From contig NZ_QNQT01000006.1 of NCBI RefSeq assembly GCF_003362805.1, forward strand, positions 1 through 64,000: 64,000 bases of DNA, in the 5' to 3' direction. This DNA is from Neobacillus piezotolerans. Lineage in GTDB: Bacteria; Bacillota; Bacilli; Bacillales; Cytobacillaceae. Position 1 is the stretch's first letter, and each line of letters begins with the position of its first letter. The position numbers and the translations under genes are program-made. The notes beneath the pieces are model-generated. The model did no database searches. It had not been told where the DNA came from and was given only the letters and a program-made list of their open reading frames with translations. Shown here one piece after another: positions 1,415-57,905 of the stretch.

Positions 1415-2179
1415 GTGACAATGTCCGGCCACAATTCATAGGAATCGTCCTTCACCCCATTTGTGTGACATTGAACGGACAAAATCCAGAAAGAATGTCA
1501 CTCACCCCCCATTTGCGTGACATTGTACGGGCGAAATCCAGAAAGAATGTCACTCAACCCTCCTTTGCCTGACATTGTACGGACAAAATCCAGAAAGAAT
1601 GTCACTCAACCCCCATTTGCGTGACATTGTCCGGCCTAAATCCAGAAAGAATGTCACTCAAACCTCCTTTGCCTGACATTGTACGGACAAAATCCAGAAA
1701 GAATGTCACTCAACCCCCATTTGCGTGACATTGTACGGGCGAAATTCGGAAAGTATGTCACTCAAACTCCTTTGCGTGACATTGTACGGGCGAAATCCAG
1801 AAAGAATGTCACTCAACCCTCCTTTGCGTGACATTGTACGGGCGAAATTCGGAAAGAATGTCACTCAAACCCCCTTTGCGTGACATTGTACGTCCTAAAT
1901 CCAGAAAGAATGTCACTCACCCCCCATTTGCGTGACATTGTACGGGCGAAATTCAGGAAGAATGTCACTCAACCCTCCTTTGCGTGACATTGTACGGGAG
2001 AAATTCGGAAAGAATGTCACTCAACCCTCCTTTGCGTGACATTGTACGGGCGAAGTTCGGGAAGAATGTCACTCAACCCTCCTTTGCGTGACATTGTCCG
2101 GCCTAAATCCAAAAAGAATGGCACTCAAACCCCACTTGCGTGACATTGTAAGGCCTAAATCCGTAAAGAATGTCACGCA
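1415..2179. repeat. Tandem array 1: about 15 units of 52 bp
   Basis: GTGACATT (or a close variant) recurs about every 52 bp: 1465, 1517, 1569, 1621 and on to 2140, with a degenerate first copy at 1415. Each unit has a left arm GTGACATT, a spacer with AAATCC(A/G)GAAAG, a right arm AATGTCAC and a linker of about 15 nt before the next left arm. The right arm and the next left arm form an 8-bp stem. Two units have CTGACATT instead. No ORF with a plausible start spans it, and there are no variable spacers, so it is not a CRISPR. It lies between the tRNA terminator and glgC. Confidence 0.93.
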
Positions 2180-2956
2180 GCCCCACTAGACCCACAAACT
2201 CCAACTAAAACAAAGTTATCTCTCATTATCCTCCTCCTTGATTGCATCAATCCACACTTCAATTTCATTTATATCAATCCTTTTATTTCCTATCTTAATG
2301 CCAACACTTTCTTTCCTATTTAAACATTTTTCATTCAAAGATCAATTAAGATCCTCTCTCTCCAACTTCCAGAAATATTCAGAAACTTTTTTTGAGAATG
2401 GGTTTTTTTATACAGAAAAAGGGTATTAGATAGAATACTTCAAAAATACAACGAAAGTTGCTTCGGTATCCTTCCTTCTCCTTCTACTGACAATTTACAT
2501 AAACTTTTGTCTTTGGGCTATTCACTTCCCTGCCATTATTTTTTCGGGTTTAAAGGCGGGTTTTTATCTTTTTATGAAGGAAAATTTGTCAGGTGAAATG
2601 GCATTGAGCGGAATTCACGGGATTTTTGGAAAATTTCCCGATTTCTTGTCAAAAAAACAAGGAATTTTTATCAAGGATTTGGAGTGGATAAAGCGAATTA
2701 TTCTTCAAAAATAGAATATCCATTTCAAAGGGATTTCGGTGTGAACAGCATGCGTGGGCATGCCACTCCTTTTGGAAGTAATGGGTAAAGGCAGCAAAAG
2801 CTACTGTAAGACCTATACGGGCTTTAATGGGAGAGCAAAGGGGTTCCAATCTTTCCAGAAAATATGCCGGGTATGTGAGACAAGGCCTCGACGGGATGGT
2901 TTTCATTCTTCGCAAGGGCTTTTGTTTTTGCCCGGAAGAAGAGAGGAGCAGCCATA
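2180..2956. other. 777-bp intergenic region upstream of glgC
   Basis: AT-rich sequence with no convincing gene. Overlapping short ORFs on both strands (2649-3102) run into the glgC start or its complement, lack good ribosome sites and resemble no family I know. I looked for a remnant of glgB, expected here by synteny, and did not recognise one. A small inverted repeat (GGGATTTTTG/AATTTCCC) lies near 2619-2640. The glgC promoter must lie here but no clear -35/-10 pair was identified. Confidence 0.5.
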
Positions 2957-4102
2957 ATGGCAAAGAAAAGATGCGTGGCAATGCTGCTGGCGGGGGGGCA
3001 GGGGAGCAGGCTGAAAATGCTGACAAGGAATCTCGCGAAGCCTGCGGTTCCGTTTGGCGGGAAGTACAGGATCATTGACTTCACTTTAAGCAATTGCGCC
3101 AATTCGGGTATTGATACAGTAGGGGTGCTGACACAATACCAGCCGATGGTGCTGAATTCCTATATTGGGATTGGAAGCGCATGGGATTTGGACAGGAAGG
3201 ATGGAGGGGTTACGGTCCTGCCGCCGTTCAGCGAGTCTTCCGAAGTGAAATGGTACACGGGAACGGCGTGCGCGGTTTACCAGAACCTCAATTACTTAAA
3301 GCAGTATGACCCGGAGTACGTGCTCATCTTATCCGGCGATCATATTTATAAGATGAATTATGAGAATATGCTTCAGTACCATATTCAAAATAGCGCGGAT
3401 GCCACGATATCGGTGATAGAAGTTCCCTGGATGGAAGCAAGCCGGTTCGGCATTATGAATACGGATCGGGATATGAGAATTATGGAATTCGAGGAGAAGC
3501 CGGACGTTCCAAAAAGCAACCTCGCCTCAATGGGGATTTATATATTTAACTGGAATGTGCTGAAAGAAACCCTGGAATCGGATTACACGAATGAAGCGTC
3601 GAGCCATGATTTCGGAAAAGATGTCATCCCCCGCCTCGTTGAGGAAGGCAAGCGGCTTATCGCTTATCCGTTCTCGGGGTACTGGAAGGACGTAGGGACG
3701 CTCGAAAGTTTCTGGGAAGCCAATATGGACCTGCTGGATGATACGTGCGGGCTCGATTTGTTCGATAACGAGTGGAGGATTTACTCTGTCAATCCGAACC
3801 ATCCTCCCCAGTTCATATCAGGTGATGCGATGGTTGTGCACTCACTTGTAAATGAAGGCTGCACCATTGAGGGGGATATCGAACACTCGGTTGTGTTCCA
3901 GGGGGTAACAATCGAAAGAGGCGCGGTTGTTAAGGATTCTGTCATCATGCCGGATGCGGTTATTGGCAAAAACACGTTCATCGAGAGGGCGATTGTCCCC
4001 TGTCACATTGAAATTCCTGAGGGCATGGTCATTCGCCCGGAGAGCGGGGAAATTGTACTCGTTAATGAAGAAATGATCCAACAGAGATATTCAGCAACTT
4101 AA
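2957..4102 (+). CDS. glgC: Glucose-1-phosphate adenylyltransferase, catalytic subunit
   Basis: It makes ADP-glucose from glucose-1-phosphate and ATP, the committed step of bacterial glycogen synthesis. The 381-aa protein opens with the nucleotidyltransferase signature (AGGQGSR at 12-18) and [15 protein letters not shown] at about 28-42, and has [10 protein letters not shown] near residue 131. Hexapeptide repeats fill the C-terminal third (about 295-365), the left-handed beta-helix of this family. Length matches B. subtilis GlgC. The ATG follows an AGGAG site. glgD starts 21 bp downstream. Oddity: the usual partners glgB (upstream) and glgA-glgP (downstream) are absent here. Confidence 0.96.
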
Positions 4103-4123
4103 TTTATAGAAGGAGGGGCAGAA

Positions 4124-5176
4124 ATGAAGAAACAATTATTGGGAGTAATCGATGCCGCCACATACCACGAAGATCTGGAACAACTACTGCTGCACAGGCC
4201 GGTTGCCGCCCTGCCTTTCGCGGGAAGATACCGCCTAATCGACTTCATCCTTTCCAGCATGGTGAATTCAGGAATCAGCAATGTTGCTATTTTTCCTAAG
4301 TCGGGATATAGATCATTAATGGACCATATTGGTTCGGGAAAGAATTGGGATTTGAACAGGAAGAGGGATGGTTTGTTCCTTTTTCCTGCTTCTCCATCGG
4401 ATGCGGATAAAGAATCAGGCATAGGTTGTTTTTCTCACTATGCCGAAAATCTTGATTTCTTTTACAGGAGCTCTCAGGAGTATACCTTGATTTCGAATTC
4501 CTTTACCGTTATCAACACGGATTTCAACCGCCTGCTGGAGCAGCATATTGGGTGTGGATGTGATTTGACAGAAGTATACAAAAACGGTAGGCCTTTAGAT
4601 GTTTATCTCCTTAAAACGTCATTGCTCATCGATTTGATTGAGAACAGGGCCGAAACCGGGTATACGTGCATCAAGGACGTTTTTGAAGATTTGTCCAGCC
4701 CTTATACCGTATGCAGGTATGAATATGAAGGCTACGCGAAAAGGGTTGAAACGATCCAGGGTTATTATAAAACAAGCATGGAATTGCTCGATTCCCGTGT
4801 ATGGAATACGTTGTTCAAAAAGTCCCAGCCTGTGTTTACAAAAGTGAAGGATGAGCCGCCATCTCGGTATTATCCTGAGTCATCGGTGAAAAGGAGCCTT
4901 ATCGCCAATGGCTGCCAACTGAAAGGGAAAATTGAAAACAGCATTATTTCAAGGGGAATCACAATCGGAAAGGGATCAATTATCCGAAACAGCGTAATTA
5001 TGCAAAAGTGCCAGATTGGCGAAAACTGCGTCCTCGATTCAGTTATCCTTGATAAAGATGTAAAGGTCGAATCGGGAACCATCCTGATTGGGAGTCCGGG
5101 CAATCCAATTGTCTACAGCAAGGGCTCTGTCGTCGGACCTGCTGAAGCACCAGCCAAAACATTAATGATATTGTAA
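4124..5176 (+). CDS. glgD: GlgD, non-catalytic or regulatory ADP-glucose pyrophosphorylase subunit
   Basis: A 350-aa GlgC paralogue. It keeps the RPVAALPFAGRYRLIDF segment (about 26-42) and the C-terminal beta-helix repeats, but the glycine-rich nucleotide motif is replaced by LLGVIDAAT. That is typical of GlgD, which raises GlgC activity in Bacillus-type GlgCD heteromers (family knowledge). AGGAGG lies 8 nt before ATG. It is co-transcribed with glgC and ends at a strong terminator. In B. subtilis glgA and glgP follow; here the next gene is the unrelated, convergent yteA. Confidence 0.93.
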   Translation: MKKQLLGVIDAATYHEDLEQLLLHRPVAALPFAGRYRLIDFILSSMVNSGISNVAIFPKSGYRSLMDHIGSGKNWDLNRKRDGLFLFPASPSDADKESGIGCFSHYAENLDFFYRSSQEYTLISNSFTVINTDFNRLLEQHIGCGCDLTEVYKNGRPLDVYLLKTSLLIDLIENRAETGYTCIKDVFEDLSSPYTVCRYEYEGYAKRVETIQGYYKTSMELLDSRVWNTLFKKSQPVFTKVKDEPPSRYYPESSVKRSLIANGCQLKGKIENSIISRGITIGKGSIIRNSVIMQKCQIGENCVLDSVILDKDVKVESGTILIGSPGNPIVYSKGSVVGPAEAPAKTLMIL

Positions 5177-5211
5177 AAAAGCCAGCTCCATTTTTTTCGG
5201 AGCTGGCTTTT
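5175..5211. terminator. Bidirectional terminator between glgD and yteA
   Basis: A 9-bp GC-rich stem (GCCAGCTCC/GGAGCTGGC) is flanked by A-runs on the left and T-runs on the right, so it can end both convergent genes. Confidence 0.92.
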
Positions 5212-5223
5212 GGTTTGTATATT

Positions 5224-5982
5224 TTATTTCTTTTTATCGTCTACATAGCTGTCCTTGCGGTGATAATGGACGTCCCCCATTTGCGAGTCAAGCCCTTTCC
5301 GGTCCAGCATATTTTCCAATTCCTTCAGCTTGTCATTGCTCGGATTGTATTTCCGATTTCCGCCGTCCATATCATTGGAAACGAATTCCTCAATGTCCTC
5401 GGGCGGAGCTTCTTCGTTAATGCCGTTTCTGTATAGCTCTTCATAGCTGTTGTAGTCACCGACAAGATCCTGAGGTCCCTCGGACGTTCCGTAGTGCGCC
5501 ACTTCCTCGAATGAGTCGTTTGTATCAATGACCCCACCTTTGCTTCTCCCTCTGAAGGAGTTCGGCACCGATGGGTCAAGTATATCCTCTTCAACAGGCC
5601 TGTCTTTCGCGGTTGTCCGGTCAGGTGTATGCTCGACGCAGTAGAGGGTGGAAGGTACGGCTTCCAAACGCTCGTAAGGAATTTCTTCCCCGCATTCCCG
5701 GCAAACGCCGTATGAGCCATCTTCGAATGCCGCAAGGGCTTCTTTAACCTTTTCGAGCTGTGAATCGGCGTGGCCGTCCAAGGCGAAGTTCTTTTCCCTT
5801 TCAAAAAGCTCCGTTCCGAGGTCGGCGGGGTGGTTGTCATAGGACGACAGTTCCCCGACCGTTTCGGTTTCGTCCTTGTCCCGGTCCCCATAGCCGTCCT
5901 TCATTTCCAGCTGCTTTTCCAGAGCCTTTTCTTCTTCCTTCAATAAATATTTCAATGAATTTAATTGATTAGTGGTTAACAT
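5224..5982 (-). CDS. yteA: YteA family zinc-finger regulator (DksA/TraR type)
   Basis: A 252-aa acidic, mostly helical protein. A coiled N-terminal region (LKEEEKALEKQLEMK) is followed by NHPADLGTELFEREKN, typical of Bacillus TraR/DksA-like proteins, then a zinc-finger core CRECGEEIPYERLEAVP and YCVEH. The last position is His rather than Cys, giving a C3H set. Homologues are annotated as sporulation-associated YteA; the exact role is unknown. The chosen ATG begins MLTTNQLNSL; an in-frame TTG 27 bp upstream is possible. The ribosome site is weak (GGATG). It is convergent with glgD. Confidence 0.88.
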   Translation of the reverse strand: MLTTNQLNSLKYLLKEEEKALEKQLEMKDGYGDRDKDETETVGELSSYDNHPADLGTELFEREKNFALDGHADSQLEKVKEALAAFEDGSYGVCRECGEEIPYERLEAVPSTLYCVEHTPDRTTAKDRPVEEDILDPSVPNSFRGRSKGGVIDTNDSFEEVAHYGTSEGPQDLVGDYNSYEELYRNGINEEAPPEDIEEFVSNDMDGGNRKYNPSNDKLKELENMLDRKGLDSQMGDVHYHRKDSYVDDKKK

Positions 5983-6257
5983 AGACTGTTCACATCCGTT
6001 TCCATGCAAATTATCATATCTGTATTAAATTTGTTCCCCTTACGCCCTACGGCGAAACATATGCAAAGGAAGGCGGTGTCACGCTGCTTTCCGCGGTTGT
6101 GGGCCAATTTTTCAAAAAGAATAAAGCGGCTCTGTATGAATACCAACAGTTGTTTCGGGGGATTCAGGTGTATGATAGACTGGAAACCAGAGAAGCAAGT
6201 AGATTTTGGCAACCTTCGTGGGATGCAATGCGGCCGAAGGTTCGTTTTGGAGCTCGA

Positions 6258-6286
6258 TAAAAAAAGCTCCCGCAAAAGCGGAAGCT
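6258..6286 (-). terminator. Intrinsic terminator of menA
   Basis: Read on the minus strand, AGCTTCCGC and GCGGGAGCT enclose a TTTT loop and are followed by a T-run. The stem includes the menA stop codon. Confidence 0.88.
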
Positions 6287-7220
6287 AGATGAAATGGCCG
6301 ATGAAGAGGCCGATGGATAGAAGGAATCCGAAAATGGTGTTGGTCTGGGCTGTCGATTTCATGGCGGGCATCATCTGGATTGGTACTTTGCCTGCCTTGA
6401 AGCCTTTGATTGCCTTTATTGCTTTTGGCGCGCTCAGGATGACGATTGCGGCCCATGGCGAGGCGATTCCAAGTCCTATCATGATTACGACGAGAGCGTA
6501 AGCCGCGATGAACATCGCTGCCAGGAAATTGATTGCGTTTTCCCTTCCCAATAGGATGGCGAGGGTTTTCCTCCCAAACTCTTTGTCGCCGTCATGGTCC
6601 CGGATGTTGTTGGCCAGCAGGATGGCGCCGACCAGGATGGAGACCGGAACCGATACGAAGACGCTTGTCGCCGTTACGAATCCTGCCTGGATGTAGAATG
6701 AGATCAAGATGATCAGGCAGCCCATGAAGAACCCTGCGAACAGTTCGCCGAACGGGGTGTATGCAATTGGGTATGGTCCTCCTGTATACAGATAGCCCAT
6801 GAGCATTGAAACGCTGCCGATAACGGCAATCCACCAGCTCGTTTCCATGCAAATATAGATGCCGAGCAGGATGGAGAGGCCATAAAGGACCAATGCGAGC
6901 TGCATGACGGTTTTTGGTTTGATCCCGTCGCGGACAATGGCGCCGCCTATCCCGACGGAATGCTCTGTGTCGAGGCCGCGCTTGAAATCATAGTATTCGT
7001 TGAACATATTGGTAGCCGCCTGGATGAGCAGGCAGGCGAGCAGCATGGCAGTAAAGAGCCCGTAATCAATGGTTCCTTCTTGAAGCGCTAGCGCGGTTCC
7101 GAGGAAAACCGGTACGAATGCCGCTGTTAGCGTATGCGGCCTTGTCAGCTGCCACCATGCGCGGAATCCGCGGTTCGATTCGGGAATATGGGGTGTGCTG
7201 GTCTTAACTTGTGGCTGCAT
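6285..7220 (-). CDS. menA: 1,4-dihydroxy-2-naphthoate polyprenyltransferase
   Basis: A membrane UbiA-type prenyltransferase that attaches the isoprenoid tail to DHNA, giving demethylmenaquinone. The 311-aa protein has about eight hydrophobic segments and both Asp-rich motifs: NEYYDFKRGLD in the first half and NNIRDHDGD in the second, which bind Mg-diphosphate. The start chosen is the ATG at 7220 (MQPQVK), 8 nt after AAGGGAG; the GTG 9 bp upstream would sit on the ribosome site. It is divergent from menF across a 408-bp gap. In B. subtilis menA is unlinked from the men cluster; here it is adjacent. Confidence 0.95.
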   Translation of the reverse strand: MQPQVKTSTPHIPESNRGFRAWWQLTRPHTLTAAFVPVFLGTALALQEGTIDYGLFTAMLLACLLIQAATNMFNEYYDFKRGLDTEHSVGIGGAIVRDGIKPKTVMQLALVLYGLSILLGIYICMETSWWIAVIGSVSMLMGYLYTGGPYPIAYTPFGELFAGFFMGCLIILISFYIQAGFVTATSVFVSVPVSILVGAILLANNIRDHDGDKEFGRKTLAILLGRENAINFLAAMFIAAYALVVIMIGLGIASPWAAIVILSAPKAIKAIKGFKAGKVPIQMMPAMKSTAQTNTIFGFLLSIGLFIGHFI

Positions 7221-7501
7221 GATGAACACTCCCTTATATATTTTGATTCATTAAAGCTAGTATTCTTGGAAACATGGCAAAAAGCCATACCAAACTTAAG
7301 TTTATGGAATTGCCCGGAGCCTGTCAATCACTTTTTCCCGACGGTTGGAAACGAATTCCATAAAAAAGGTAAACCAGTTTCTTCACCATAAGTGCTAGTT
7401 CTTATTTTGGTGAAGAACCGAAAACGTCTTTTCCTGGGAGGTCGATGGAATTTTCCAGTGGTTTGCAGGCGGCGGTTGTCGAGCTTTGCGGTGGAATGCG
7501 T

Positions 7502-7507
7502 TATAAT
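7502..7507 (+). promoter_or_regulatory. menF: Putative -10 element for the men operon
   Basis: TATAAT lies about 120 bp before the menF start. The best upstream hexamer, TTGTCG at 7476-7481, is at a poor 20-bp spacing, so the -35 is uncertain. The 7221-7628 gap otherwise holds no visible gene. Confidence 0.45.
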
Positions 7508-7628
7508 AAGGTATGAACACGGTTGGAAGTGACAAGTGTTATTGACACTCCAGCGGACAGAGTAGTATCCTAAATGGGGTTTAGGTTGAATGGACAACAG
7601 CTTTGGATGCTGTGTTGGAGGGAAATTT

Positions 7629-29691: not shown

Positions 29692-30092
29692 GTTCCAAAT
29701 TCCAGCTAAGTAGTCACAATAGCCCCGATTTCTGACAACCGAGGACCAAAATCCAGCTAGGTTGTCAGAATAAGCTTTGATATCTGACAAGCGATGCCCA
29801 AAATCGGGCTAGGTTGTCAGAATAAGCTTTGATATCTGACAAGCGAGGATCAAAATCAGGATAGGTTGTCAGAATAAGCCATGGAATCTGACAAGCGAGG
29901 CCCAAAATCCGGCTAGGTTGTCAGAATAAGCCCTGAAATCTGACAAGCGAGCACCAAAATCCAGCTAGGTTGTCAGAATAAGCCATGGTATCTGACAAGC
30001 GAGGACCAAAATCCAGCTAGGTTGTCAGAATAAGCCATGGTATCTGACAAGCGAGGACCAAAATCCAGCTGCGATGTCACAATAATCCTTGG
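29692..30092. repeat. Tandem array 2: about 7-8 units of 52 bp
   Basis: TTGTCAGA recurs every 52 bp. Each unit reads TTGTCAGA, a 13-nt spacer (often ATAAGCCATGGTA), TCTGACAA, then GCGAGGACCAAAATCCAGCT. The two arms form an 8-bp stem. The first and last units are divergent, with GTCACA in place of GTCAGA. It lies between ytmB and the terminator of convergent pckA and contains no gene. Confidence 0.95.
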
Positions 30093-32438: not shown

Positions 32439-32559
32439 CTCTTATCCTGAGCCGGTGGAGGGACAGGCCCTATGAAGCCCGGCAACCTGCATGTGAGAAA
32501 ATTTTCTCCTGGCAAAGGTGCCAAACCTGACGCAAGGCGCATGCCTTGAACGATAAGAG
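32439..32559 (+). promoter_or_regulatory. metK: SAM-I (S-box) riboswitch of metK
   Basis: P1 arms CTCTTATC and GATAAGAG enclose the S-box core: CTGAGCCGGTGGAGGGA, AGCCCGGCAACCTGC, TGGCAAAGGTGCCAA and GAACGATAAGAG. When SAM is bound the downstream terminator forms and metK is switched off. Confidence 0.95.
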
Positions 32560-47802: not shown

Positions 47803-47846
47803 TAGTCGAGTTGGCGCGTGGGCTTTAAAAAGAAAGGAGAATCATG

Positions 47847-49028
47847 ATGCCTCGTTCATTATGGCTTTTAATCATCGGAATGGTTGTCAACGTCACGGGT
47901 TCATCCTTTCTCTGGCCCTTGAATACAATTTACATCCATGACCATCTAGGGAAATCGTTATCGACTGCCGGCATAATCCTTATGCTGAACTCCGCGGCTA
48001 GCGTCGCGGGAAACCTGGCTGGGGGAAGCCTCTTTGACAGGTTTGGCGGCTACAGGTCGATCCTGCTTGGGATTGGGATTGCGCTTCTCGCTCTTCTTGG
48101 TTTGACCTTTTGGAACAGCTTTACCCCATACACGATTTTCCTTACCATTTCGGGGTTCGGCGCGGGAATCATTTTTCCGGCAATGTACGCGATGTCGGGG
48201 GCTGTCTGGAAGGAAGGCGGGAGGAAAGCGTTCAACGCCATCTATGTTGCACAGAATCTTGGGGTGGCTGTCGGAGCCGCGCTTGGAGGATTCGTTGCGG
48301 ACTATTCCTTCCAACTAATATTCGTTGCAAACTTGTTTATGTATATCATCTTTATGGGTATTGCCGTTTTTGGCTATAAAAACATAGCCGAACGGAATGC
48401 CGCCCAGACTTCAATCCTTTCTGAGAATCCACCGGCGGGGATGAACAGGAAGTTAAAAGCGCTGCTTATATTATGCATCGGCTACCTTTTATGCTGGGTT
48501 GGCTACGTCCAGTGGCAGACAACGATTGCTTCCTATACACAAGAAATCAATATTACCCTTACCCAATATAGCCTTTTGTGGACCGTGAACGGCGCGTTGA
48601 TCGTGTTGGGGCAGCCGGTGCTCAACGGCTTCCTGAAGCGGTTTGGCCGATCGCTTAAAACGCAGATGGTCCTCGGCATGCTTATATTTGTAGTGGCGTT
48701 CATCGTCGCGGCCAACTCTGGCAGCTTTTCTGGATTTATGGCGGGGATGATTATTTTGACAGCAGGCGAAATGCTCATCTGGCCGGCTGTCCCGACAATT
48801 GCCAGCGAACTTGCCCCTCGGGGCCGGGAAGGCTTTTACCAGGGAATCGTCAACAGCACGGCAACAGGCGGCAGGATGATCGGCCCGCTCCTCGGCGGGA
48901 TTCTCGTAGATCTGTACGGCATGTCGATGCTGTTCATCATCCTGATTGGTTTGTTTGTTATTTCAATAGGAACAACTGTTGTGTATGACCGTGGCATCAA
49001 GGAAACAAAGCACTCGGTTGGTATTTAG
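47847..49028 (+). CDS. yttB: MFS transporter (YttB)
   Basis: 393 aa, about 12 membrane helices. The loop motif GGSLFDRFGGYRS between helices 2 and 3 is the MFS motif A. The pair of ATG codons after AAAGGAG allows a start at 47844 or 47847; the second has better spacing. Its substrate is unknown; homologues are annotated as multidrug-type exporters. Located upstream of leuS as yttB in B. subtilis. Terminator follows. Confidence 0.88.
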   Translation: MPRSLWLLIIGMVVNVTGSSFLWPLNTIYIHDHLGKSLSTAGIILMLNSAASVAGNLAGGSLFDRFGGYRSILLGIGIALLALLGLTFWNSFTPYTIFLTISGFGAGIIFPAMYAMSGAVWKEGGRKAFNAIYVAQNLGVAVGAALGGFVADYSFQLIFVANLFMYIIFMGIAVFGYKNIAERNAAQTSILSENPPAGMNRKLKALLILCIGYLLCWVGYVQWQTTIASYTQEINITLTQYSLLWTVNGALIVLGQPVLNGFLKRFGRSLKTQMVLGMLIFVVAFIVAANSGSFSGFMAGMIILTAGEMLIWPAVPTIASELAPRGREGFYQGIVNSTATGGRMIGPLLGGILVDLYGMSMLFIILIGLFVISIGTTVVYDRGIKETKHSVGI

Positions 49029-49033
49029 GGATT

Positions 49034-49066
49034 GTCCCGCGCATAGATGCATGCGCGGGATTTTTT
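49034..49066 (+). terminator. yttB terminator
   Basis: TCCCGCGCAT / ATGCGCGGGA stem then six T. Confidence 0.9.
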
Positions 49067-49239
49067 GCGGGGGTTATTTGTTTTTTGCCTATAATTAAAC
49101 TTATTTAACCCGCGGGTTGCGGCGGCAAGTCTTTGGGAATACTTCCGCTATAGCACATTTTCGCCTTAGCGGCTTGCATCCCGAGGGAAATTAATTTAAA
49201 ATAATTTAATATAAATCATTAAATGACTTTGATAAGGAA

Positions 49240-49457
49240 TAGTAGTGATTCCGTCCCGCCATTAGAGAGCTGGCGGTTGGTGCAAGCCGGCCGGGACCAT
49301 CATGAACTCGCCTTTGAGTCGCGGGTGTGAAGAACTAGTAATGCCCGCCGTTTTCCGCGTTAAGGATGAATGAAGCGAGTGTTTTCACACTAATGTGGGT
49401 GGTACCGCGGGAAGATACATATCCTCTCGTCCCTGTTTAAGGGATGGGAGTTTTTTA
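49240..49457 (+). promoter_or_regulatory. leuS: T-box leader of leuS (leucine)
   Basis: Stem I contains AGAGAGCTGG and GGTGCAAGCCGG. The specifier loop GAACTCGCC carries CTC (Leu). The T-box TGGGTGGTACCGCGG is at 49396-49410 and precedes a terminator. Uncharged tRNA-Leu(GAG) would favour the antiterminator and leuS transcription. The 5' boundary is approximate. Confidence 0.94.
49423..49457 (+). terminator. leuS: T-box terminator of leuS
   Basis: CTCTCGTCCC with GGGATGGGAG around TGTTTAA, then six T; 34 bp before leuS. Confidence 0.93.
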
Positions 49458-49490
49458 TTTTTTCAAAGAAGATTGAGGGAGGAAATCCAG

Positions 49491-51902
49491 ATGAACTTCA
49501 ACCACAGGGAAATCGAAAAAAAGTGGCAGACGAAGTGGGAAACAGAAAAAACTTTTAAAACAGGCGAGGAAAAAGGCAAGCCGAAGTTTTACGCGCTTGA
49601 CATGTTCCCTTATCCTTCAGGGGCCGGGCTCCATGTCGGCCATCCTGAAGGCTATACGGCGACCGACATCCTTTCCCGCATGAAACGGATGCAGGGCTAT
49701 AATGTGCTTCATCCGATGGGATGGGACGCGTTCGGGCTTCCAGCCGAGCAATACGCGCTAGATACAGGAAACGACCCGGCGGAGTTTACCGAAAGAAATA
49801 TAAACACGTTCCGCCGCCAAATCAAGGAATTGGGCTTTTCTTACGATTGGGACCGGGAAGTAAATACTACAGATCCTGATTATTACAAATGGACACAGTG
49901 GATTTTCCTGAAGCTTTACGAACATGGCCTTGCCTATATCGACGAAGTATCGGTTAACTGGTGCCCGGCGCTTGGTACTGTTCTTGCCAATGAAGAAGTC
50001 ATCGACGGCAAGAGTGAGCGCGGGGGCCATCCGGTCGAACGCCGCCCTATGAAGCAGTGGGTATTGAAAATTACCGCCTATGCCGATCGCCTGTTGGAGG
50101 ACCTTGAAGAACTCGACTGGCCAGAAAGCCTGAAGGATATGCAGCGCAATTGGATCGGCCGTTCCGAAGGCGCCGAGGTTACTTTTAACATAAAAGGCCA
50201 TGGCGAAACATTTACGGTTTTCACTACACGCCCGGATACACTTTTTGGCGCGACGTATGCCGTCCTTGCACCGGAGCACGCGCTTGTCGAAAAAATTACC
50301 ACTGCCGAGCAAAAGGAAGCGGTGGAGGCGTATCTTGAAAAAATTAAAAGCAAGAGCGACCTGGAAAGGACCGATCTTGCAAAAGAAAAGACCGGCGTTT
50401 TCACAGGTGCCTATGCGATCAATCCGGCAAACGGCGAAGAAATGCCAATCTGGATTGCGGATTACGTTCTTGCCAGCTATGGAACCGGCGCGATTATGGC
50501 CGTTCCGGCTCATGACGAGCGTGACTATGAATTCGCCAAGCAATTCGGCCTTCCAATTGTTGAAGTCGTAGCAGGCGGGGATATTGAAAAAGAAGCGTAT
50601 ACAGGTGACGGTGATCATGTGAATTCCGGATTCCTGAATGGCTTAAGCAAGGGCGATGCGATCCGTGACATGATTGCCTGGCTAGAAGAGAAAGGCATTG
50701 GCACGAAAAAGGTGACTTACCGCCTGCGCGACTGGCTGTTCAGCCGTCAGCGCTATTGGGGAGAGCCGATTCCTATCATCCATTGGGAGGACGGAACCAG
50801 CACGGCTGTTCCTGAAGACCAGCTGCCACTTGTTTTACCAAAAACAACCGACATTAAACCATCCGGTACTGGGGAATCTCCTCTTGCGAACATTGATGAC
50901 TGGGTAAATGTCGTTGACCCTGAAACAGGCAAAAAGGGACGCCGTGAAACGAACACAATGCCACAATGGGGCGGAAGCTGCTGGTATTATCTTCGCTATA
51001 TCGATCCGAAAAATAACGATAAGTTAGCCGATCCAGAAAAATTGAAGGAATGGCTTCCTGTCGACATTTACATTGGCGGCGCAGAGCATGCGGTGTTGCA
51101 TTTGCTATACGCGCGTTTCTGGCACAAGTTCCTTTATGACATCGGTGTTGTTCCGACAAAGGAACCATTCCAGAAGCTCTTCAACCAAGGAATGATCCTT
51201 GGTGAAAACAACGAAAAAATGAGCAAGTCAAAAGGCAATGTCGTCAATCCGGACCATATCGTAGAAAGCCACGGGGCAGACACATTAAGGCTTTACGAAA
51301 TGTTCATGGGGCCACTTGATGCTTCCGTTGCCTGGTCGACAAACGGCCTCGACGGCGCGCGCAGGTTCCTTGACCGCGTATGGCGCCTGTTCATCGAATC
51401 GGATGGAACGGTTTCCGCGAAAATCCAGGAAGGCGCGAAGGCGGAAAACCTTGAGAGGGTCTACCACCAGACGGTGAAAAAGGTTACGGAGGACTATGAA
51501 GGACTCCGGTTCAATGTCGGTATTTCACAATTGATGGTCTTCATCAATGAAGCATATAAATCCGATGTTCTTCCAAAGGAATATATGGAAGGTTTCGTAA
51601 AACTTCTTTCCCCAGTTGCGCCGCACGTTTGCGAAGAACTTTGGCAAAAGCTCGGCGGCACTGATACAATTGCTTATGACCCATGGCCAACCTTCGATGA
51701 GTCAAAACTTGTTGAGGACGAAGTAGAAATCGTTGTCCAAGTTAACGGCAAGCTGAAGAAGAAGCTTATGATTCCAGCCGATGCGACGAAAGAAGCGATG
51801 GAAGAGCTTGCAATGAAGGAAATCAGCGCCGAGCTTGAGGGCAAAACCGTCCGCAAGGTTATTGCCGTACCAAGCAAGCTTGTCAACGTTGTCGCAAATT
51901 AA
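49491..51902 (+). CDS. leuS: Leucyl-tRNA synthetase
   Basis: 803 aa class I synthetase. HIGH variant HVGH in [12 protein letters not shown], an editing domain (about 220-420, with [12 protein letters not shown] and ATP-independent [15 protein letters not shown]), and KMSKS in [13 protein letters not shown] at 49491 ([12 protein letters not shown]) follows GAGGGAGG; upstream in-frame codons lie in the T-box. Controlled by the leucine T-box. Confidence 0.98.
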
Positions 51903-51980
51903 TAGCCTTCAATTTCTTGGCCTTATTTCTGGCTGAAAACGAGGGTTTATGGGAAACTATAGTTTGATAAACCATTTATT

Positions 51981-52009
51981 TCATCCCCCGGCAACCGGGG
52001 GATGTTTTT
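51981..52009 (+). terminator. leuS terminator
   Basis: CATCCCCCGG / CCGGGGGATG stem, CAA loop, then five T, just before ytwF. Confidence 0.9.
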
Positions 52010-52025
52010 AACAAGGGGTGTAAGG

Positions 52026-52340
52026 ATGGAACCAATTAAAACGATTTCGACGGAAGATCTGAAAAAGAAGCTTGAGGATGGAGAGAACCTTGAGCTGATT
52101 GATGTCAGGGAAGACGAGGAAGTTGCATATGGTATGGTCCCGGGCGCGAAGCATATCAAAATGAGTGATATCCCAGCACGGATTGAGGAACTGGACAAAA
52201 ACAAGGAATACATCTTCATCTGCCGTTCAGGTGGACGGAGCATGAACGTCTGCCACTATCTTCAGCAGCAGGGCTTCAAGGTCATCAACATGAAAGGCGG
52301 CATGCTTGAGTGGGAAGGCGACGTCGAGGTGCAAGGGTAG
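52026..52340 (+). CDS. ytwF: Rhodanese-domain protein (YtwF)
   Basis: 104 aa single rhodanese domain: ELIDVREDEEVAYG, then the sulfur-carrying Cys in ICRSGGRSM and GGMLEW. Start at 52026 after AAGGGG; codons upstream fall in the leuS terminator. It is probably a sulfur-transfer protein; its partner is unknown. Terminator follows. Confidence 0.92.
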   Translation: MEPIKTISTEDLKKKLEDGENLELIDVREDEEVAYGMVPGAKHIKMSDIPARIEELDKNKEYIFICRSGGRSMNVCHYLQQQGFKVINMKGGMLEWEGDVEVQG

Positions 52341-52386
52341 CTGCTTAAATTGGCGGGTGACGGTGAATTTCATTAGCCGTTTTCAT

Positions 52387-52430
52387 AAAAAATGCTTTTC
52401 CTGGTTAATGAGGAAAAGCGTTTTTTATTT
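52387..52430 (+). terminator. ytwF terminator
   Basis: AAATGCTTTTCCT / AGGAAAAGCG stem with 8-nt loop followed by TTTTTTATTTT. Confidence 0.85.
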
Positions 52431-52512
52431 TATTTAGTGGTAAAGGTTGTTCCATGAACCTATTTTGTCTCAGCTATTCTTAATTTAAGCGAGTATGAGT
52501 CAAATGCGAACC

Positions 52513-52690
52513 GATGTTTGGACAGCAAAGTGAATTTCCGAGGGTTGCATGTCCAAAGATACCCGATGTTTGGACAGCAAAGTGAATTTTTAAGGGTTGC
52601 GTGTCCAAAGATACCAGATGTTTGGACAGCATAGTGAATTTTTAAGGGTTGCGTGTCCAAAGATACCCGATGTTTGGACAGGATCCCAGG
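52513..52690. repeat. Tandem array 4: 3.5 units of 52 bp
   Basis: TTTGGACA occurs four times at 52-bp intervals (52517, 52569, 52621, 52673), each followed by GCAAAGTGAATTTTTAAGGG or a close variant and TGTCCAAA 33 bp on. The right arm and the next left arm form an 8-bp stem with an 11-nt loop (GATACCCGATG). Same period as arrays 1-3 but different arms. It lies between the ytwF terminator and convergent SASP gene. The rest of the 52431-52781 gap has no gene. Confidence 0.93.
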
Positions 52691-52781
52691 TTAACAAATA
52701 AATTGAGTCCAAAGTTGTTCCTAGAATGTGAATGGATCACATCGCCTAATAAATGTCCTCTATAAAAACATGCCTGAACAT

Positions 52782-53033
52782 CTATTTCTTTTTCAAATTC
52801 TCCTGCGCCATTCGGACGAGCTCCTTAACCATGCTGCCGCCAAGCCTTCCGCCGACTTTCCCGGCATCCTCAGCCGCCAGCCTGCCATTATAGCCGTGCT
52901 GAAGCGGTACGCCAACTTCTTTCGCGGCTTCATATTTTGCATCCTCAGGACGGTTGGCGCCGACCACCTTCGCTTTTAATTCATCGAGTCCTTTTCTCGC
53001 TTCGGGAACAAGGATTTTGTTGCGTCTAGCCAT
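52782..53033 (-). CDS. Alpha/beta-type small acid-soluble spore protein
   Basis: 83 aa, starting MARRNKILVPEARKGLDEL. KYEAAKEVGV is the GPR-cleavage-like segment, and GYNGRLAAEDAGKVGGRLGGSMVKELV is the second conserved DNA-binding block. It coats spore DNA in the developing spore. ATG at 53033 follows AAAGGAGG. Several paralogues are usual in Bacillus, so no specific ssp name is given. Confidence 0.93.
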   Translation of the reverse strand: MARRNKILVPEARKGLDELKAKVVGANRPEDAKYEAAKEVGVPLQHGYNGRLAAEDAGKVGGRLGGSMVKELVRMAQENLKKK

Positions 53034-53149
53034 GTTTTCCAGCCTCCTTTTTAAATTTATTTTTCCTAAAAAAATAAACCTTATCCATTCCATTTGTTAA
53101 AAAGTTGTAATTTTGGAAAAACTGATGAAAAAAGAGGGAGGAAGGCAAA

Positions 53150-53332
53150 ATGATACAGGTAAAACTTTTCGATAAAGAGCATGAAGTAGATCTTGAAACC
53201 GATATGAATAATTTCCTAAAAGGGCTGGATGAAAAAAAGCTGCTAGATATTAAATACAATGTAGCGGCACTTCAGGAAGACGAGGATGACCAAATTTATT
53301 GCTTTTCGGCCATGGTCATCTATAGGGCTTGA
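53150..53332 (+). CDS. cse60: Sporulation protein Cse60-like
   Basis: 60 aa: MIQVKLFDKEHEVDLETDMNN-type start, then IDIKYNVA-like (LDIKYNVAAL) and YCFSAMVIYRA at the end. Length and both ends match Cse60, a sigma-E-dependent B. subtilis protein of unknown function. ATG follows GGGAGGAAGG. Divergent to the SASP gene. Confidence 0.8.
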   Translation: MIQVKLFDKEHEVDLETDMNNFLKGLDEKKLLDIKYNVAALQEDEDDQIYCFSAMVIYRA

Positions 53333-53445
53333 CCGCTATTTTTCATATACAAATAGAAGGGGGATACCCAGCATTAAGTTAAGCTTATTTATTCCGTCAC
53401 GTTCATTTTATAGAGTTGGCCATGTTTTGGATCGAAGATAAATGT

Positions 53446-53492
53446 AACGGAGCTCCCCAGCACACGAGCCTTGCGGGGAGCTCCGTTTTTTA
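53446..53492 (+). terminator. Terminator between cse60 and ytfP
   Basis: AACGGAGCTCCCC and GGGGAGCTCCGTT arms, about 16-nt loop, then T-run; AT content on the left is weaker for the minus strand. Confidence 0.85.
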
Positions 53493-53500
53493 AAAAATTA

Positions 53501-54772
53501 TTATTGGCCGCCGGCTGCGAATTCGGCGGCGCTGCCCCCGGCAAGCCTGCCGGTCACGAACGCTGCGGTAATATTGTAGCCGCCAGTATATCCGTGTATG
53601 TCTAGAATTTCACCGCAAAAATAGAGTCCGTCCATCATTTTCGATGCCATTGTCTGCGGCTCGATCTCCTTTACGGAAACGCCTCCTCCCGTGACGAAAG
53701 CTTTTTCAAGCGGGAGGGTGCCGTCGACCTTGAACGTAAACTGCTTGCACAGCACGCAGAATGAGCGGATTTTCTCGTGCGAAACCTCCGAACCTTGCGC
53801 GCCGGCGTCTATCCCCGATCTTTCAAGCAAAAACAGCAAATATCTTTCCGGCAAAAAGCCTTTCAGTAAATTTTTCATGCTCTTTTTTGGCTCTTCCTTA
53901 ACGAGCTTCGCAATTTCCTGAAAAAGCGCTTCGCCGTTCTGGTCCGGCAGCGCGTCGATTTGCATCTCCACTTCCTTCAGGTTCCATTTCTTAATCGCTT
54001 TTACAACGAACTGGCTCGAGCGCAGAACCGCGGGGCCGCTTACGCCAAAATGGGTGAAAAGCATGTCCATCCGATGGGTGATAAGCGGTTTCCCTTTTGG
54101 ATTGAGCACGCTGACCGCAACACTGCGGAGCGACAGCCCCTGAAGGATTTTACTTTTGATAAAAGGTTCTTTGGACGTCACAGGCACTTCGGTCGGAAAA
54201 AGCTCGGTAATTGTGTGGCCCGCCTTTTCGGCCCAGGCATAGCCGTCCCCGGTCGAACCGGTATGGGGAACCGATTTCCCGCCGACAGCGACAACGACCG
54301 CACCGGCTTCAATCTCCGACCCATTGGCAAGCAGAACGCCCTTCGCCCTGCCGCCCTCAAATAACAAATCCTTAACCGGCGAGTTCGTATAAGTTTTTAC
54401 TTTTAACTCTTCCAGTTTCCCTAGGAGTGCATCAACAACGGATTGTGCTTTGTCGGTAACCGGAAACATCCGGCCATGGTCTTCTTCCTTCAACTGAATA
54501 CCTAACCTTTCGAAAAAAGCGATAATATCTTCATTGCTGAAAATCGAGAATCCGCTGTACAAAAACCGGCCATTCCCTGGAATATGTTTAATGATTTCGT
54601 CGACCGGCAGCCTATTTGTCACATTGCACCGGCCTCCTCCGGAAATGGCGAGCTTCCGGCCAAGCTTGTCGCCCTTGTCGATCAACAGGACACGGGCTCC
54701 CTTTTCCCCTGCCGCGGCCGCGGCCATCAATCCGGATGGCCCTCCCCCAATTACGATGACATCATATGTCAT
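53501..54772 (-). CDS. ytfP: FAD-dependent oxidoreductase, HI0933 family (YtfP)
   Basis: 423 aa. N-terminal dinucleotide motif [15 protein letters not shown] (about 6-20), [11 protein letters not shown] and C-terminal [11 protein letters not shown] with [15 protein letters not shown], typical of the BaiN/HI0933 flavoproteins. Substrate unknown; family members may reduce C=C bonds. Same neighbourhood (ytgP, ytzG) as in B. subtilis. Confidence 0.92.
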
Positions 54773-54865
54773 AAAAAAACACCAACTTTTTTAGTCATGA
54801 TATGTGGTAAACTTGTTTTCTTATTATATACATTGAAAGGCCGCCGTGAAAAGGAGGCCCGATTC

Positions 54866-54934
54866 GTGAAAAAAATCGAAACGGCGTGGGTGGCAGTGGC
54901 GCATTGGCGAAAAGAAAGGTACACTACTAATTAG
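54866..54934 (+). CDS. Candidate 22-aa small protein
   Basis: GTG start 8 nt after a perfect AAAGGAGG, coding for MKKIETAWVAVAHW then RKERYTTN and TAG. It is divergent from ytfP and 86 bp upstream of murJ. Basic at both ends with a short hydrophobic, Trp-containing middle. Too short to identify by homology; the strong ribosome site is the main evidence. Confidence 0.45.
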   Translation: MKKIETAWVAVAHWRKERYTTN

Positions 54935-55020
54935 CGTGCGGAACAGGAAAGAGTACCTTTTTAAAAATCTTGTTACCCTTAAGCGCAAGATAATGGATTT
55001 TTTAAGTGAGAAGGGATTTT

Positions 55021-56625
55021 ATGTCGTCATCAAAATTAATCAGGGGAACATTCATATTGACGCTTGGAACGATCATTTCCAAGATGCTCGGGCTTTTTTA
55101 TGTTATTCCATTTACGCGGATTGTCGGGTTGGAGGGGACTCGGCTTTACCAGTATTCGTATATCCCTTATACAATTTTTATCAGCATAGCCACGGCTGGC
55201 ATTCCGCTCGCCGTTTCAAAATTCATAGCGAAATATAATGCGATGGAAGAATACTCTGTCGGACGGAAGCTTTTCAAATCGGGGCTTGTTGTGATGATGT
55301 GCTCCGGTATCGTAGCGTTTTTGGTCCTGTATTTTACAGCGCCGCTGCTTTCGACGGGAAAGGATTTGCCGGCGGAGGACATTACATCTGTCATTCGGGC
55401 CGTTTCCTTTGCGCTCATCATTGTTCCGTTCATGAGCATGATCCGGGGTTTTTTCCAGGGGCATCAGTCCATGGGCCCATCTGCGGTTTCACAGGTTGTT
55501 GAGCAGGTTGTCAGGATCGTATTCGTTATCGCCGGAGCTTATATCATTTTAAAATTCCTTGACGGAAATACTGTCGATGCTGTCAAGGCTGCCACATTTG
55601 CCGCATTTGTCGGCGCGGTCGGCGGTCTTGCTGTCCTTGTATGGTACTGGGTAAAAAGGAAGCCTGGACTTGATGAACTGCTTGAGAAGGATAAAGGAAC
55701 TGTGGATATCTCCTTAAAGGAAATGTACAAGGAAATCCTGATTTACGCCGCGCCGTTTGTACTAGTCGGGATAGCGAATCCGCTTTTCCAATTCATTGAC
55801 CAAATTACTTTTGAACGCGCGATGGTTTCGATTGGAATTAGCGAAACGGCAGCGGGTGATGCATTTTCAATCTTGAATTTCCAGTCGCATAAGTTGGTCA
55901 TCATTCCGGTTTCGCTTGCGACAGCTTTTTCACTTACGCTCGTTCCCAGCATCACCAAGGCATTTGTGGAGAATGACCGGAAGAGCCTGAACCGACAGCT
56001 GAACCAGACGTTCCAGGTGCTTTTGTTCCTGACCTTGCCGGCCGCAGCAGGATTATCGCTGCTCGCTGAACCATTCTATACGGTTTTCTACGGCCATATG
56101 GACCTTGGGACGGAAGTGCTGCGAATGTACGCACCTGTCGCCATCTTTTTTGCCCTATACTCGGTTACCGCGGCAATCTTGCAGGGGATTAATGAACAGA
56201 AATGGACAATTCTAAGCCTGCTGACGGGCTTGCTTGTAAAATTCGCCCTCAATATGCCGCTTATTAAGCTGTTTGAAACCGACGGGGCGATTTTGGCGAC
56301 TACTCTCGGTTATGGCGCGGCCATCATGATTAATTTGATTGTCATTAAAATTTTTTCAAAGTACCAATTCAGGCTTGTGGTGCGGCGCAGCTTCTTGATT
56401 GTTATATTTGGCGGGTTGATGCTTGCCGCCGCGGCTGGCGTGTACAAGCTTTTAACAGGATTCCTGTCGCCCGCATCGGAATTTCAGTCATTGATCCTCA
56501 TCCTTGTCAGCGCCATTGCCGGAGGGATCGTGTATTTTTACATTTCCTTTAAAACCCGGCTTATCTACTTCCTGTTTGGGGACAAGGTGGATAAGCTTAT
56601 GGGCAAGCTGAAATTGAGGGCCTAG
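55021..56625 (+). CDS. murJ: Lipid II flippase MurJ-type polysaccharide exporter (YtgP)
   Basis: 534 aa, about 14 membrane helices, MATE/MOP superfamily. The N-terminus (RGTFILTLGTIISKMLGLFY) and PFMSMIRGFFQGHQSMGPSAVSQVVEQVVR fit Bacillus YtgP, now called MurJ, one of two redundant lipid II flippases with Amj (family knowledge). ATG at 55021 follows AAGGG; an in-frame codon 15 bp upstream lacks good spacing. ytzG follows by 73 bp. Confidence 0.9.
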   Translation: MSSSKLIRGTFILTLGTIISKMLGLFYVIPFTRIVGLEGTRLYQYSYIPYTIFISIATAGIPLAVSKFIAKYNAMEEYSVGRKLFKSGLVVMMCSGIVAFLVLYFTAPLLSTGKDLPAEDITSVIRAVSFALIIVPFMSMIRGFFQGHQSMGPSAVSQVVEQVVRIVFVIAGAYIILKFLDGNTVDAVKAATFAAFVGAVGGLAVLVWYWVKRKPGLDELLEKDKGTVDISLKEMYKEILIYAAPFVLVGIANPLFQFIDQITFERAMVSIGISETAAGDAFSILNFQSHKLVIIPVSLATAFSLTLVPSITKAFVENDRKSLNRQLNQTFQVLLFLTLPAAAGLSLLAEPFYTVFYGHMDLGTEVLRMYAPVAIFFALYSVTAAILQGINEQKWTILSLLTGLLVKFALNMPLIKLFETDGAILATTLGYGAAIMINLIVIKIFSKYQFRLVVRRSFLIVIFGGLMLAAAAGVYKLLTGFLSPASEFQSLILILVSAIAGGIVYFYISFKTRLIYFLFGDKVDKLMGKLKLRA

Positions 56626-56698
56626 CACATGATGTGCGCCTGCCTGTCGGGTGGGTGGTTTTTTAAAAAAAAAGAGCCCTGCAAAAGGAGGGGACGGA

Positions 56699-57415
56699 AT
56701 GAGAATTGATAAGATGCTGGCCAACCTTGGCTTTGGGAGCAGGAAGGAAGTAAAGAAGCTTTTGAAGGATGGAGCCGTGACGGTGAATGACAAGGCGGTC
56801 AAGGATCCAAAGCAGCATGTGGATCCGGAAAAGGATGTTGTGATGCTGAATGGTGCTGTCATTGAATATAAAGAGTTTGTTTATTTAATGATGAACAAGC
56901 CGCCGGGCGTCCTGTCGGCAACGGAGGACACGCGGGATGAGACGGTTATTGACTTGCTTCAGCTGGAGGACCAGGTGTATGAGCCTTTTCCGGTCGGCAG
57001 GCTTGATAAGGATACGGAGGGGCTGCTTCTGATTACGAATGATGGGCAGCTTGCGCATCGCCTGCTGTCTCCGAAGAAGCATGTGCCGAAAACGTATTTC
57101 GCGGTCATTGAGGGCGAGGTTACCGAGGAGGATGCGGCGGCGTTCCGAAAGGGTGTTACGCTTGATGATGGGTACCACACGAAGCCGGGCGAGCTGAAAA
57201 TCCTAAAGTCGGGGCTGATGTCGGATATCGAGCTGACGATTACGGAAGGGAAATTCCATCAGGTGAAGCGGATGTTTCAGGCGGTCGGAAAGCGTGTCGT
57301 GTATTTGAAGCGGCTGACGATGGGGCCGTTGAAGCTTGATGAGACGCTTGAGCTCGGCGAGTACCGGGAGCTGACGGATGAAGAGATCGAGATGCTGATG
57401 GAGTATCAGCCATGA
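56699..57415 (+). CDS. ytzG: RsuA-family rRNA pseudouridine synthase (YtzG)
   Basis: 238 aa. S4 domain at the N-terminus (RIDKMLANLGFGSRKEVKKLLK), then the catalytic GRLDKDTEGLLLIT (Asp near residue 101) and KRMFQAVGKRVVYLKR. Probably modifies 16S rRNA; exact site not derivable. ATG at 56699 after AAAGGAGGGG. Compared with neighbours it uses many GAG/CTG-rich codons but the frame is intact. Confidence 0.93.
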   Translation: MRIDKMLANLGFGSRKEVKKLLKDGAVTVNDKAVKDPKQHVDPEKDVVMLNGAVIEYKEFVYLMMNKPPGVLSATEDTRDETVIDLLQLEDQVYEPFPVGRLDKDTEGLLLITNDGQLAHRLLSPKKHVPKTYFAVIEGEVTEEDAAAFRKGVTLDDGYHTKPGELKILKSGLMSDIELTITEGKFHQVKRMFQAVGKRVVYLKRLTMGPLKLDETLELGEYRELTDEEIEMLMEYQP

Positions 57416-57420
57416 ATGAG

Positions 57421-57456
57421 CGGCCGGGGAAGGAAGACTTCCGCCGGCTTTTTTTA
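57421..57456 (+). terminator. ytzG terminator
   Basis: GCCGG.GGAAG / CTTCC.CCGGC stem followed by seven T. Confidence 0.88.
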
Positions 57457-57530
57457 TTGGTTCTTCTTGTTTGTGGGGTTTGGGCAGGGGGGCATGTATA
57501 AGGGACATCCGTGGGGCAAAAGCCAGGTCA

Positions 57531-57905
57531 TTTGTCAGAAAAAGCCTCAATATATGACAAGCGGGAGCTGAAATCCGGGTTGGTTGTCAGAAAACGCCTG
57601 TATATCTGACAAGCGGGAGCTGAAATCCGGGTTAGTTGTCAGAAAGAGCCTGTATATCTGACAAGCGGGCGCTGAAATCCGGGTTGGTTGTCAGAAAAAG
57701 CCTGTATATCTGACAAGCGGGAGCCGAAATCCGGGTTGGTTGTCAGAAAAAGCCTATATATCTGACAAGCGGGAGCTGAAATCCGGGTTAGTTGTCAGAA
57801 AAAGCCTGTATATCTGACAAGCGGGAGCTGAAATCCGGGTTGGTTGTCAGAAAGCGCCTATATAGCTGACAAGCGGAAGCTGAAATCGGGATCAGTTGTC
57901 ACAGA
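57531..57905. repeat. Tandem array 3: 7 units of 52 bp plus a terminal half unit
   Basis: TTGTCAGA at 57532, 57584 and every 52 bp to 57844, then a last TTGTCACA at 57896. Unit: TTGTCAGA, AAAAGCCTGTATA, TCTGACAA, GCGGGAGCTGAAATCCGGGTTGG. Arms as in array 2; the spacer and linker differ. Lies in the 600-bp gap between ytzG and a convergent membrane-protein gene; the remaining 57906-58015 shows nothing more. Confidence 0.95.

Follow-up and report, generated by a model that had tools for sequence, protein, structure and literature searches.

A 64-kb stretch of the Neobacillus piezotolerans genome (the window; positions count from its first letter) holds four tandem arrays with a common period of 52 bp. 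Comparative sequence analysis makes it likely that these arrays are the cognate DNA sites of chromosomal proteins that combine a NERD domain, a zinc ribbon and a putative helix-turn-helix (HTH), and that their maintenance depends on the gene for such a protein. As far as the accessible part of Subirana and Messeguer (2021; PMC8161180) goes, repeats of this kind have been described before, and what is new is the gene-satellite system.

Tandem Repeats Finder (TRF), run over the window, returned all four arrays where a first-pass annotation had placed them, in units whose mutually complementary arms differ between arrays as it had claimed. According to the TRF output and the unit consensus, array 1 (1455..2184, 14.1 copies of 52 bp) has arm type A (TGTCAC...GTGACA), array 2 (29695..30085, 7.5 copies) and array 4 (57532..57901, 7.1 copies) have arm type B (TGTCAGA...TCTGACA), and array 3 (52482..52681, 3.9 copies) has arm type C (TGTCCAAA...TTTGGACA); none is assigned a strand. 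Superposing the four gives a common frame, TGTC-N19-GACA-N25. A representative palindrome of 27 bp, located in array 2 by pattern match and pairing profile (29763..29789, no strand assigned), has two 10-bp arms around a 7-bp centre, with the next unit following at +52 bp. Some details of the annotation had to be corrected. It had given array 3 the arms of array 4 and the reverse: arrays 2 and 4 have TTGTCAGA/TCTGACAA, and array 3, at 52.5 kb, has TTTGGACA/TGTCCAAA. The AAATCC spacer core that it gave to arrays 1-3 is present in arrays 1 and 2, absent from array 3, and present in array 4. Its TGTC/GACA core holds for the window arrays and is common elsewhere, but was rejected as a universal feature, because gene-linked arrays of other genomes have other outer bases. 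TGTC-type half-sites may resemble those of resolvase/TnsB-type recombination sites.

We surveyed 864 kb of sequence from this genome, chosen in part for arrays already known in it, and found an excess at period 52 (16 TRF arrays, with period 21 as runner-up at 8). Fifteen of the 16 hold the frame, and the remaining one consists of 2.1 copies at 75%. Matches to TGTC-N19-GACA lay inside arrays in 107/115 cases, and six of the eight outside the array mask make up one array that the mask had overlooked; the candidate explanation of single palindromes of the REP (repetitive extragenic palindromic) type was rejected, with none found outside arrays in these 864 kb. In the genome as a whole, two consecutive frame units match 166 times and the reversed pattern not once, in agreement with the earlier view that chance is not at work. 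Across the family, the two-unit pattern occurs in 136/193 genomes and 17/25 genera (up to 615 per genome), and its reverse in none except two genomes with one match each; a variant ending in GACT occurs in 97/193 genomes, and one array-rich genome has as many as 8 matches to its reverse. When one genome per species was scanned, at least 116 stretches carried the frame. Among the matches listed, record titles are all Bacillota except for four of Chryseobacterium sp. ISL-80 (L059, L114, L115, L159), which is probably a mislabelled Bacillus, since it has such arrays and since strains ISL-18 to ISL-55 among the matches listed bear Bacillus titles.

The anatomy of the unit was worked out on 148 consensus units, 101 of them non-redundant, which came from 152 chains that each hold three or more units. 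Since they were selected on TGTC and GACA, these eight positions are fixed by construction. Palindrome pairs 5 to 10 are complementary far above expectation (pair 6: 78/101, expected 28), pairs 11 to 13 are not above it, and a smaller excess is seen at two pairs that lie outside the palindrome. The unit therefore consists of a 10-bp arm, a 7-bp centre, a second 10-bp arm and a 25-bp spacer. Arm changes are compensated between arrays across the 101 units. Consensus mismatches show no preference for G-U (62 G-T vs 60 A-C), and arm covariation without a significant G-U bias indicates that the constraint acts on DNA. The A/T content runs through five cycles per 52-bp unit (|F5| 4.25, against a maximum of 0.85 in 2000 shuffles), and the best period obtained from the spacer alone is 10.4 bp; symmetrising sets the phase of this cycle and not its amplitude. 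The same phasing was found in 75 gene-adjacent arrays that had not been picked by TGTC (|F5| 4.77, maximum 1.02 in 1000 shuffles). Frames with fewer than three palindromes (L262, L270, L274, L294) are unreliable: they were omitted from the second protein-arm set and the gene-linked G-T/A-C counts described below and kept in the tally of outer 4-mers, and L262 and L274 are included among the 75 arrays. With compensated arms and a constant, helically phased period, the constrained unit suspected by the annotation is supported.

A linked and co-distributed gene, which the annotation had proposed to look for, was found outside the window; within it there was no NERD match. Clustering 464 open reading frames (ORFs) that adjoin arrays gave as top cluster a NERD protein family (9 ORFs in 8 loci), and the next clusters (8 and 7 ORFs) were judged by eye to be common families. 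A tblastn search of 132 array loci with a NERD protein returned eight strong and two weak cases. Linkage was then measured in loci taken by gene score. Set 1, the 30 loci of the best matches in the 193 genomes, had a period-52 array 3' of the gene in 29/30 cases, at a distance of 5-286 bp, and none on the 5' side. For set 2 (30 loci from 19 named genomes known beforehand to bear arrays) the counts were 20/30 for 3', 6/30 for 5' and 4/30 for none. All 12 loci of set 3, from 9 genomes without a TGTC..GACA match, had a 3' array, and set 4 (30 loci from 20 genomes without a match to either pattern) had 22/30 at 3', one at 5' and seven with none, three of those seven at contig ends. Taken over all sets, an array lies directly 3' of the NERD gene in 83/102 loci and on either side in 90/102. 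As background, an array lies no more than 300 bp 3' of 9/614 ORFs of at least 150 aa in the N. piezotolerans sequence, a count that by construction includes the NERD gene of that stretch; gene calls for this background, for the neighbour comparison and for the gap classes used below were simple ORF picks. By a hand tally over the frame, GACT-variant and gene scans, arrays of either pattern occur in 148/175 genomes with a strong gene vs 4/18 without one (p 8e-8). Where the two arms are unequal, the imperfect one keeps a single orientation to the gene (TGTC..GACT 20, AGTC..GACA 1 among gene-linked arrays). One genome (G112; L291-L294) has four NERD copies, each followed by a period-52 array, three with clearly different arms and the fourth with an unreliable frame.

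The partner protein is ~302 aa long and comprises NERD (PF08378), four zinc-ribbon cysteines and a C-terminal stretch. All four scanned proteins of this subfamily pass the PF08378 gathering score (47-75 bits, cutoff 22.1). The PD-(D/E)XK motif is intact in 69/69 intact genes (E42, D74, D/E87, K89), and the genes are under purifying selection (median omega 0.15 in 33 pairs). The full-length structural model is poor (mean predicted local distance difference test score, pLDDT, 52.7, with blocks of 64-88 from residue 241 on) and unsuited to fold comparison; it places C-terminal helices near 244-258, 266-273 and 279-289, the last two of which recur in a separate model of residues 205-302 (mean pLDDT 50). 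No PDB entry reached E 0.001 in a search with the full-length model; the top-ranking one was a response-regulator DNA-binding domain at E 0.1. Because the models are of low confidence, an HTH is a probable reading of the C-terminal stretch and nothing firmer. The protein is nuclease-like and probably DNA-binding. By eye, the neighbouring genes resemble housekeeping genes, and most of them do not recur between loci. In two paralogs in the N. piezotolerans genome the shared sequence begins ~80-90 bp before the gene start, as though promoter, gene and array moved as one. Separately, we observed the motif TTAACA-N5-TTCAYA 70-90 bp before NERD genes (e.g. L209, L239, L249), in 13/77 of them vs 0/588 control ORFs, and a looser form in 20/77 vs 5/588. 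It resembles a PhoP box, a likeness for which a literature search found no paper and which stays a lead.

Protein and variable arms appear to be matched. N. piezotolerans has three strong NERD copies, with E no higher than 6e-128, and four weak ones, with E between 7e-21 and 4e-12. The strong copies pair with the arm types of the window: array 1 is of the type that adjoins the gene at G000:C12:178444-179349 (type A), array 2 of the type beside G000:C23:277669-278571 (type B), and array 3 of the type beside G000:C5:76031-76933 (type C), a copy broken by TAG. One further array of this genome, of another arm type (GACT pattern, C1:288 kb), has no NERD gene beside it. The arrays of C23 and C12 differ in their arms and share the AAATCC spacer core, and the two proteins differ at 7/210 residues before the zinc ribbon, 5/32 in it and 20/59 after it. 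Synonymous divergence is likewise higher in the C-terminal part (0.96 vs 0.17), and the gene is therefore a mosaic. Among 39 gene-array pairs, protein distance correlates with arm distance (r 0.62, 0/2000 permutations), most in the C-terminal region (0.70), followed by NERD (0.54), zinc ribbon (0.52), middle (0.50) and N-terminus (0.42). In a second set of 28 pairs the overall value was 0.33, with 0.35 for the C-terminal region (3/2000), 0.32 for the middle, 0.29 for the zinc ribbon, 0.28 for NERD and 0.00 for the N-terminus; the top and bottom of the ranking thus hold, with a small lead. Dispersed arrays, too, resemble the gene-linked arms of their own genome: 19/28 rank it first of 16 genomes, in a comparison for which the gene sets of some genomes are incomplete, and 0/2000 shuffles did as well.

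A parallel association was seen for a second class of repeats. The sample consisted of 20 hand-picked rows of weaker NERD relatives, taken as a control, and one weak copy from N. piezotolerans itself (L304-L324; 11 named genomes and its own). Arrays of 20-21 bp lie beside 18/21 of these vs 2/104 of the first subfamily, and 52-bp arrays beside 1/21 vs 92/104. Of the four weak N. piezotolerans copies, one of which is among the 21, two have a 20-21-bp array in their flanks and two do not. Five of five scanned proteins of this second subfamily match PF08378 (52-75 bits, cutoff 22.1), and the two subfamilies align over NERD and zinc ribbon. Since array class differs by subfamily, the two repeat classes of PMC8161180, as described in its accessible part, pair with different parts of one protein family, although the second sample is small.

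The state of the gene is also associated with that of the array. Arrays have a median length of 539 bp beside 86 intact genes (5 without an array) and 169 bp beside 15 broken or partial ones (4 without; p 5e-5). In N. piezotolerans, where the single strong gene for type C is broken, arrays of that type tend to be lower in copy number than those of types A and B (5 vs 10 arrays, p 0.006). Arrays also come and go between relatives: at the place of array 4, relative G020 lacks such an array and by eye has degenerate units of another type, and at the place of array 2 there is an array in G020, none in G019, G022 and G023, and, judged from coordinates, gaps too short for one in G017 and G021.

Altogether, the best supported reading is that the proteins bind their own arrays as DNA dyads. 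In the mechanism that we propose, a gene of the family carries an array directly 3' of the stop codon, with gene-less arrays of the same arm type dispersed in the genome. A protein dimer would read the two 10-bp arms through its C-terminal region, and successive units, exactly five helical turns apart, would all lie on the same side of the helix. The protein may then cut or nick the DNA and so provoke recombination that amplifies and homogenises the arrays, by which gene and satellite would propagate together. To this amplification step, taken by itself, we give a little under an even chance, on the grounds that the motif is invariant, that arrays are shorter beside broken genes and that array turnover is fast. 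Somewhat more tentative is the full proposal of self-propagating bacterial satellites, in which sequence-specific NERD nucleases would amplify, homogenise and disperse their own helically phased arrays; it takes in the origin of new specificities by divergence or swapping of the C-terminal region, and both 52-bp (five-turn) and 20-21-bp (two-turn) satellites.

Several observations weigh against assigning the arrays to these proteins in this way. Twelve of the 102 gene loci have no array (three at contig ends), and the six 5' arrays of set 2 (6/30) are not where the others are. Set 1 is not wholly independent, because most of the genes behind the family profile were themselves neighbours of arrays, an objection that sets 3 and 4 answer in part. 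Four genomes have arrays without a strong gene: G027 (155 matches), G008 (9), G078 (27; 66% complete) and G025 (1). For G027 (L301) and G008 (L300) the gene may be lost, too divergent, or in an assembly gap. Nine of the 28 dispersed arrays are not best matched to the sampled gene arms of their genome, Mantel tests ignore phylogeny, and in the second set the lead of the C-terminal region over the middle, zinc ribbon and NERD is slight (0.35 vs 0.32, 0.29 and 0.28). The putative HTH comes from low-confidence models. The short arrays beside broken genes may simply reflect a joint decay of both, and the type C comparison is weak, with p at 0.026 and 0.038 under other inclusion of one omitted period-51 array and one retained gene-linked array. 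Finally, an enzyme that cuts its own chromosome at many sites would have to be tightly controlled.

In the main rival, which is unlikely, the NERD protein would coat the arrays in step with the helix and thereby anchor, insulate or segregate the nucleoid; its nuclease fold would be incidental or regulatory, and host selection would keep the arrays. Nucleoid proteins were proposed for such repeats by Subirana and Messeguer (accessible part of PMC8161180), and five-turn phasing, chromosomal dispersal and purifying selection all fit; convergent intergenic gaps, moreover, hold 35/121 classified arrays and make up 222/1289 gene gaps. Host selection of this kind is harder to reconcile with an invariant nuclease motif, with patchy presence and rapid turnover between close relatives, with the occurrence of several arm types in one genome and with shorter arrays beside broken genes. 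We consider it improbable that the arrays hold or titrate a nuclease that is released on invading DNA: NERD does occur in defence proteins, and there are domain-level matches to PglW and MkoA, yet these are weak and confined to the NERD part, and the neighbours, on which no defence scan was run, look by eye like housekeeping genes and are mostly unshared.

It is very improbable that the arrays act as RNA, as tandem hairpins in small RNAs or 3' untranslated regions. In its accessible part, PMC8625621 reports 52-nt repeats as transcribed in B. coagulans, and the arrays lie 3' of the gene in the fixed orientation given above. Raw counts in gene-sense units lean to G-T over A-C (237 vs 141; 240 vs 184 when oriented by neighbouring genes), as do 74 gene-linked consensi (26 vs 14, p 0.08). 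Single-unit counts of this kind are not independent, however, and the lean is gone in the consensus units (62 vs 60, as above; 29 vs 28 when oriented by co-directional genes) and in 51 non-redundant gene-linked arrays (12 vs 11). Phasing at 10.4 bp is a property of the double helix, and the arrays had no Rfam match at gathering scores. It is hardly credible that the tandem duplication was neutral, with template switching perfecting the palindromes and the protein unrelated: palindrome correction is a known mutational process and array turnover is fast, but symmetry stops at pair 10 in unrelated arrays, phasing is far above shuffles in two sets, and gene linkage is far above background.

The proposed pairing of NERD proteins with their arrays invites comparison with known systems. 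REP sequences are dispersed extragenic palindromes served in trans by a gene for a RAYT (REP-associated tyrosine transposase), a Y1 transposase. Dispersed extragenic palindromes and a chromosomal single-copy-type gene acting in trans are common to both systems; here, in contrast, the enriched linked gene is NERD and not a Y1 transposase (no Y1 search was made), and the arrays are long and of exact period, with no isolated palindromes in the 864 kb. Plasmid centromere arrays and iterons adjoin the gene of their binding protein, as in ParR-parC. They too are tandem, helically phased sites beside the gene of a probable binding protein, whereas the present arrays are chromosomal and dispersed in large numbers, go with a nuclease motif and have neighbours that differ between loci. 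Plasmids gave no match for array 4 or for one NERD protein (one array and one protein tried), and phages none for array 1, the array alone being searched. In viral contigs one stretch has a three-unit pattern, and there was no confirmed NERD relative among 76 pattern stretches. CRISPR arrays were rejected, as the units of an array resemble one another over their full 52 bp, spacers included, and the enriched neighbour gene is NERD. The CENP-B box of alpha satellite, whose motifs are proposed to promote array rearrangement (PMC3694981, accessible part), is similar in that the satellite unit is constrained and the protein that binds its motif is a relative of enzymes that cut DNA; it differs from the bacterial case, in which the gene stands beside its own array and several paralog-arm pairs occur per genome. 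SmdA, a membrane cell-division protein, shares the NERD domain with the partner protein and lacks several conserved NERD residues (accessible part of PMC9040797), and its authors stated in 2022 that NERD had until then gone unstudied in bacterial proteins.

The closest precedent is PMC8161180 itself. Its accessible part describes 52-nt and 20-21-nt tandem repeats in Bacillus that are non-coding, of constant size and variable sequence, with short motifs that are particular to the species and stand in the same repeat as their reverse, and with several families per genome; their function is said not to be known, and nucleoid proteins or small RNAs are suggested. The window arrays belong to the 52-nt class by every character given there (tandem, non-coding, 51-53 nt, constant size, variable sequence, several families), and they share the pairing of motif and reverse. 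The earlier view that no named element has these properties thus falls as regards the repeat class, and stands in that the accessible part reports neither function nor partner protein. Sequence conservation is also unreported there; added here are the 10-7-10-25 layout, the 10.4-bp phasing and a NERD subfamily for each class. A search for NERD together with tandem repeats found no paper in the literature collection that was searched.

Other features of the window lie apart from the 52-bp arrays. A cluster of 11 tRNA genes (144-1244) ends ~200 bp before array 1, and Rfam places a S-adenosylmethionine (SAM) riboswitch at 32439-32559 and a T-box leader at 49220-49437. Between two + strand ORFs, at 61417-62321, lies a further and separate tandem array with a period of 141 bp (6.4 copies at 98%), directly upstream of the ORF at 62331, with inverted repeats in each unit and no Rfam match.

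In Bacillus genomes, repeats of fixed length and free sequence have so far lacked an explanation, as the accessible part of PMC8161180 presents them, and a partner gene of matching specificity makes them testable. In addition, the association hints at what the NERD domain may do, and it offers a tractable model of satellites that co-evolve with the proteins that read them, in which many natural protein-arm pairs could be read as a recognition code. If the proposal of self-propagating satellites is true, one protein family would account for both enigmatic classes of Bacillus repeats.

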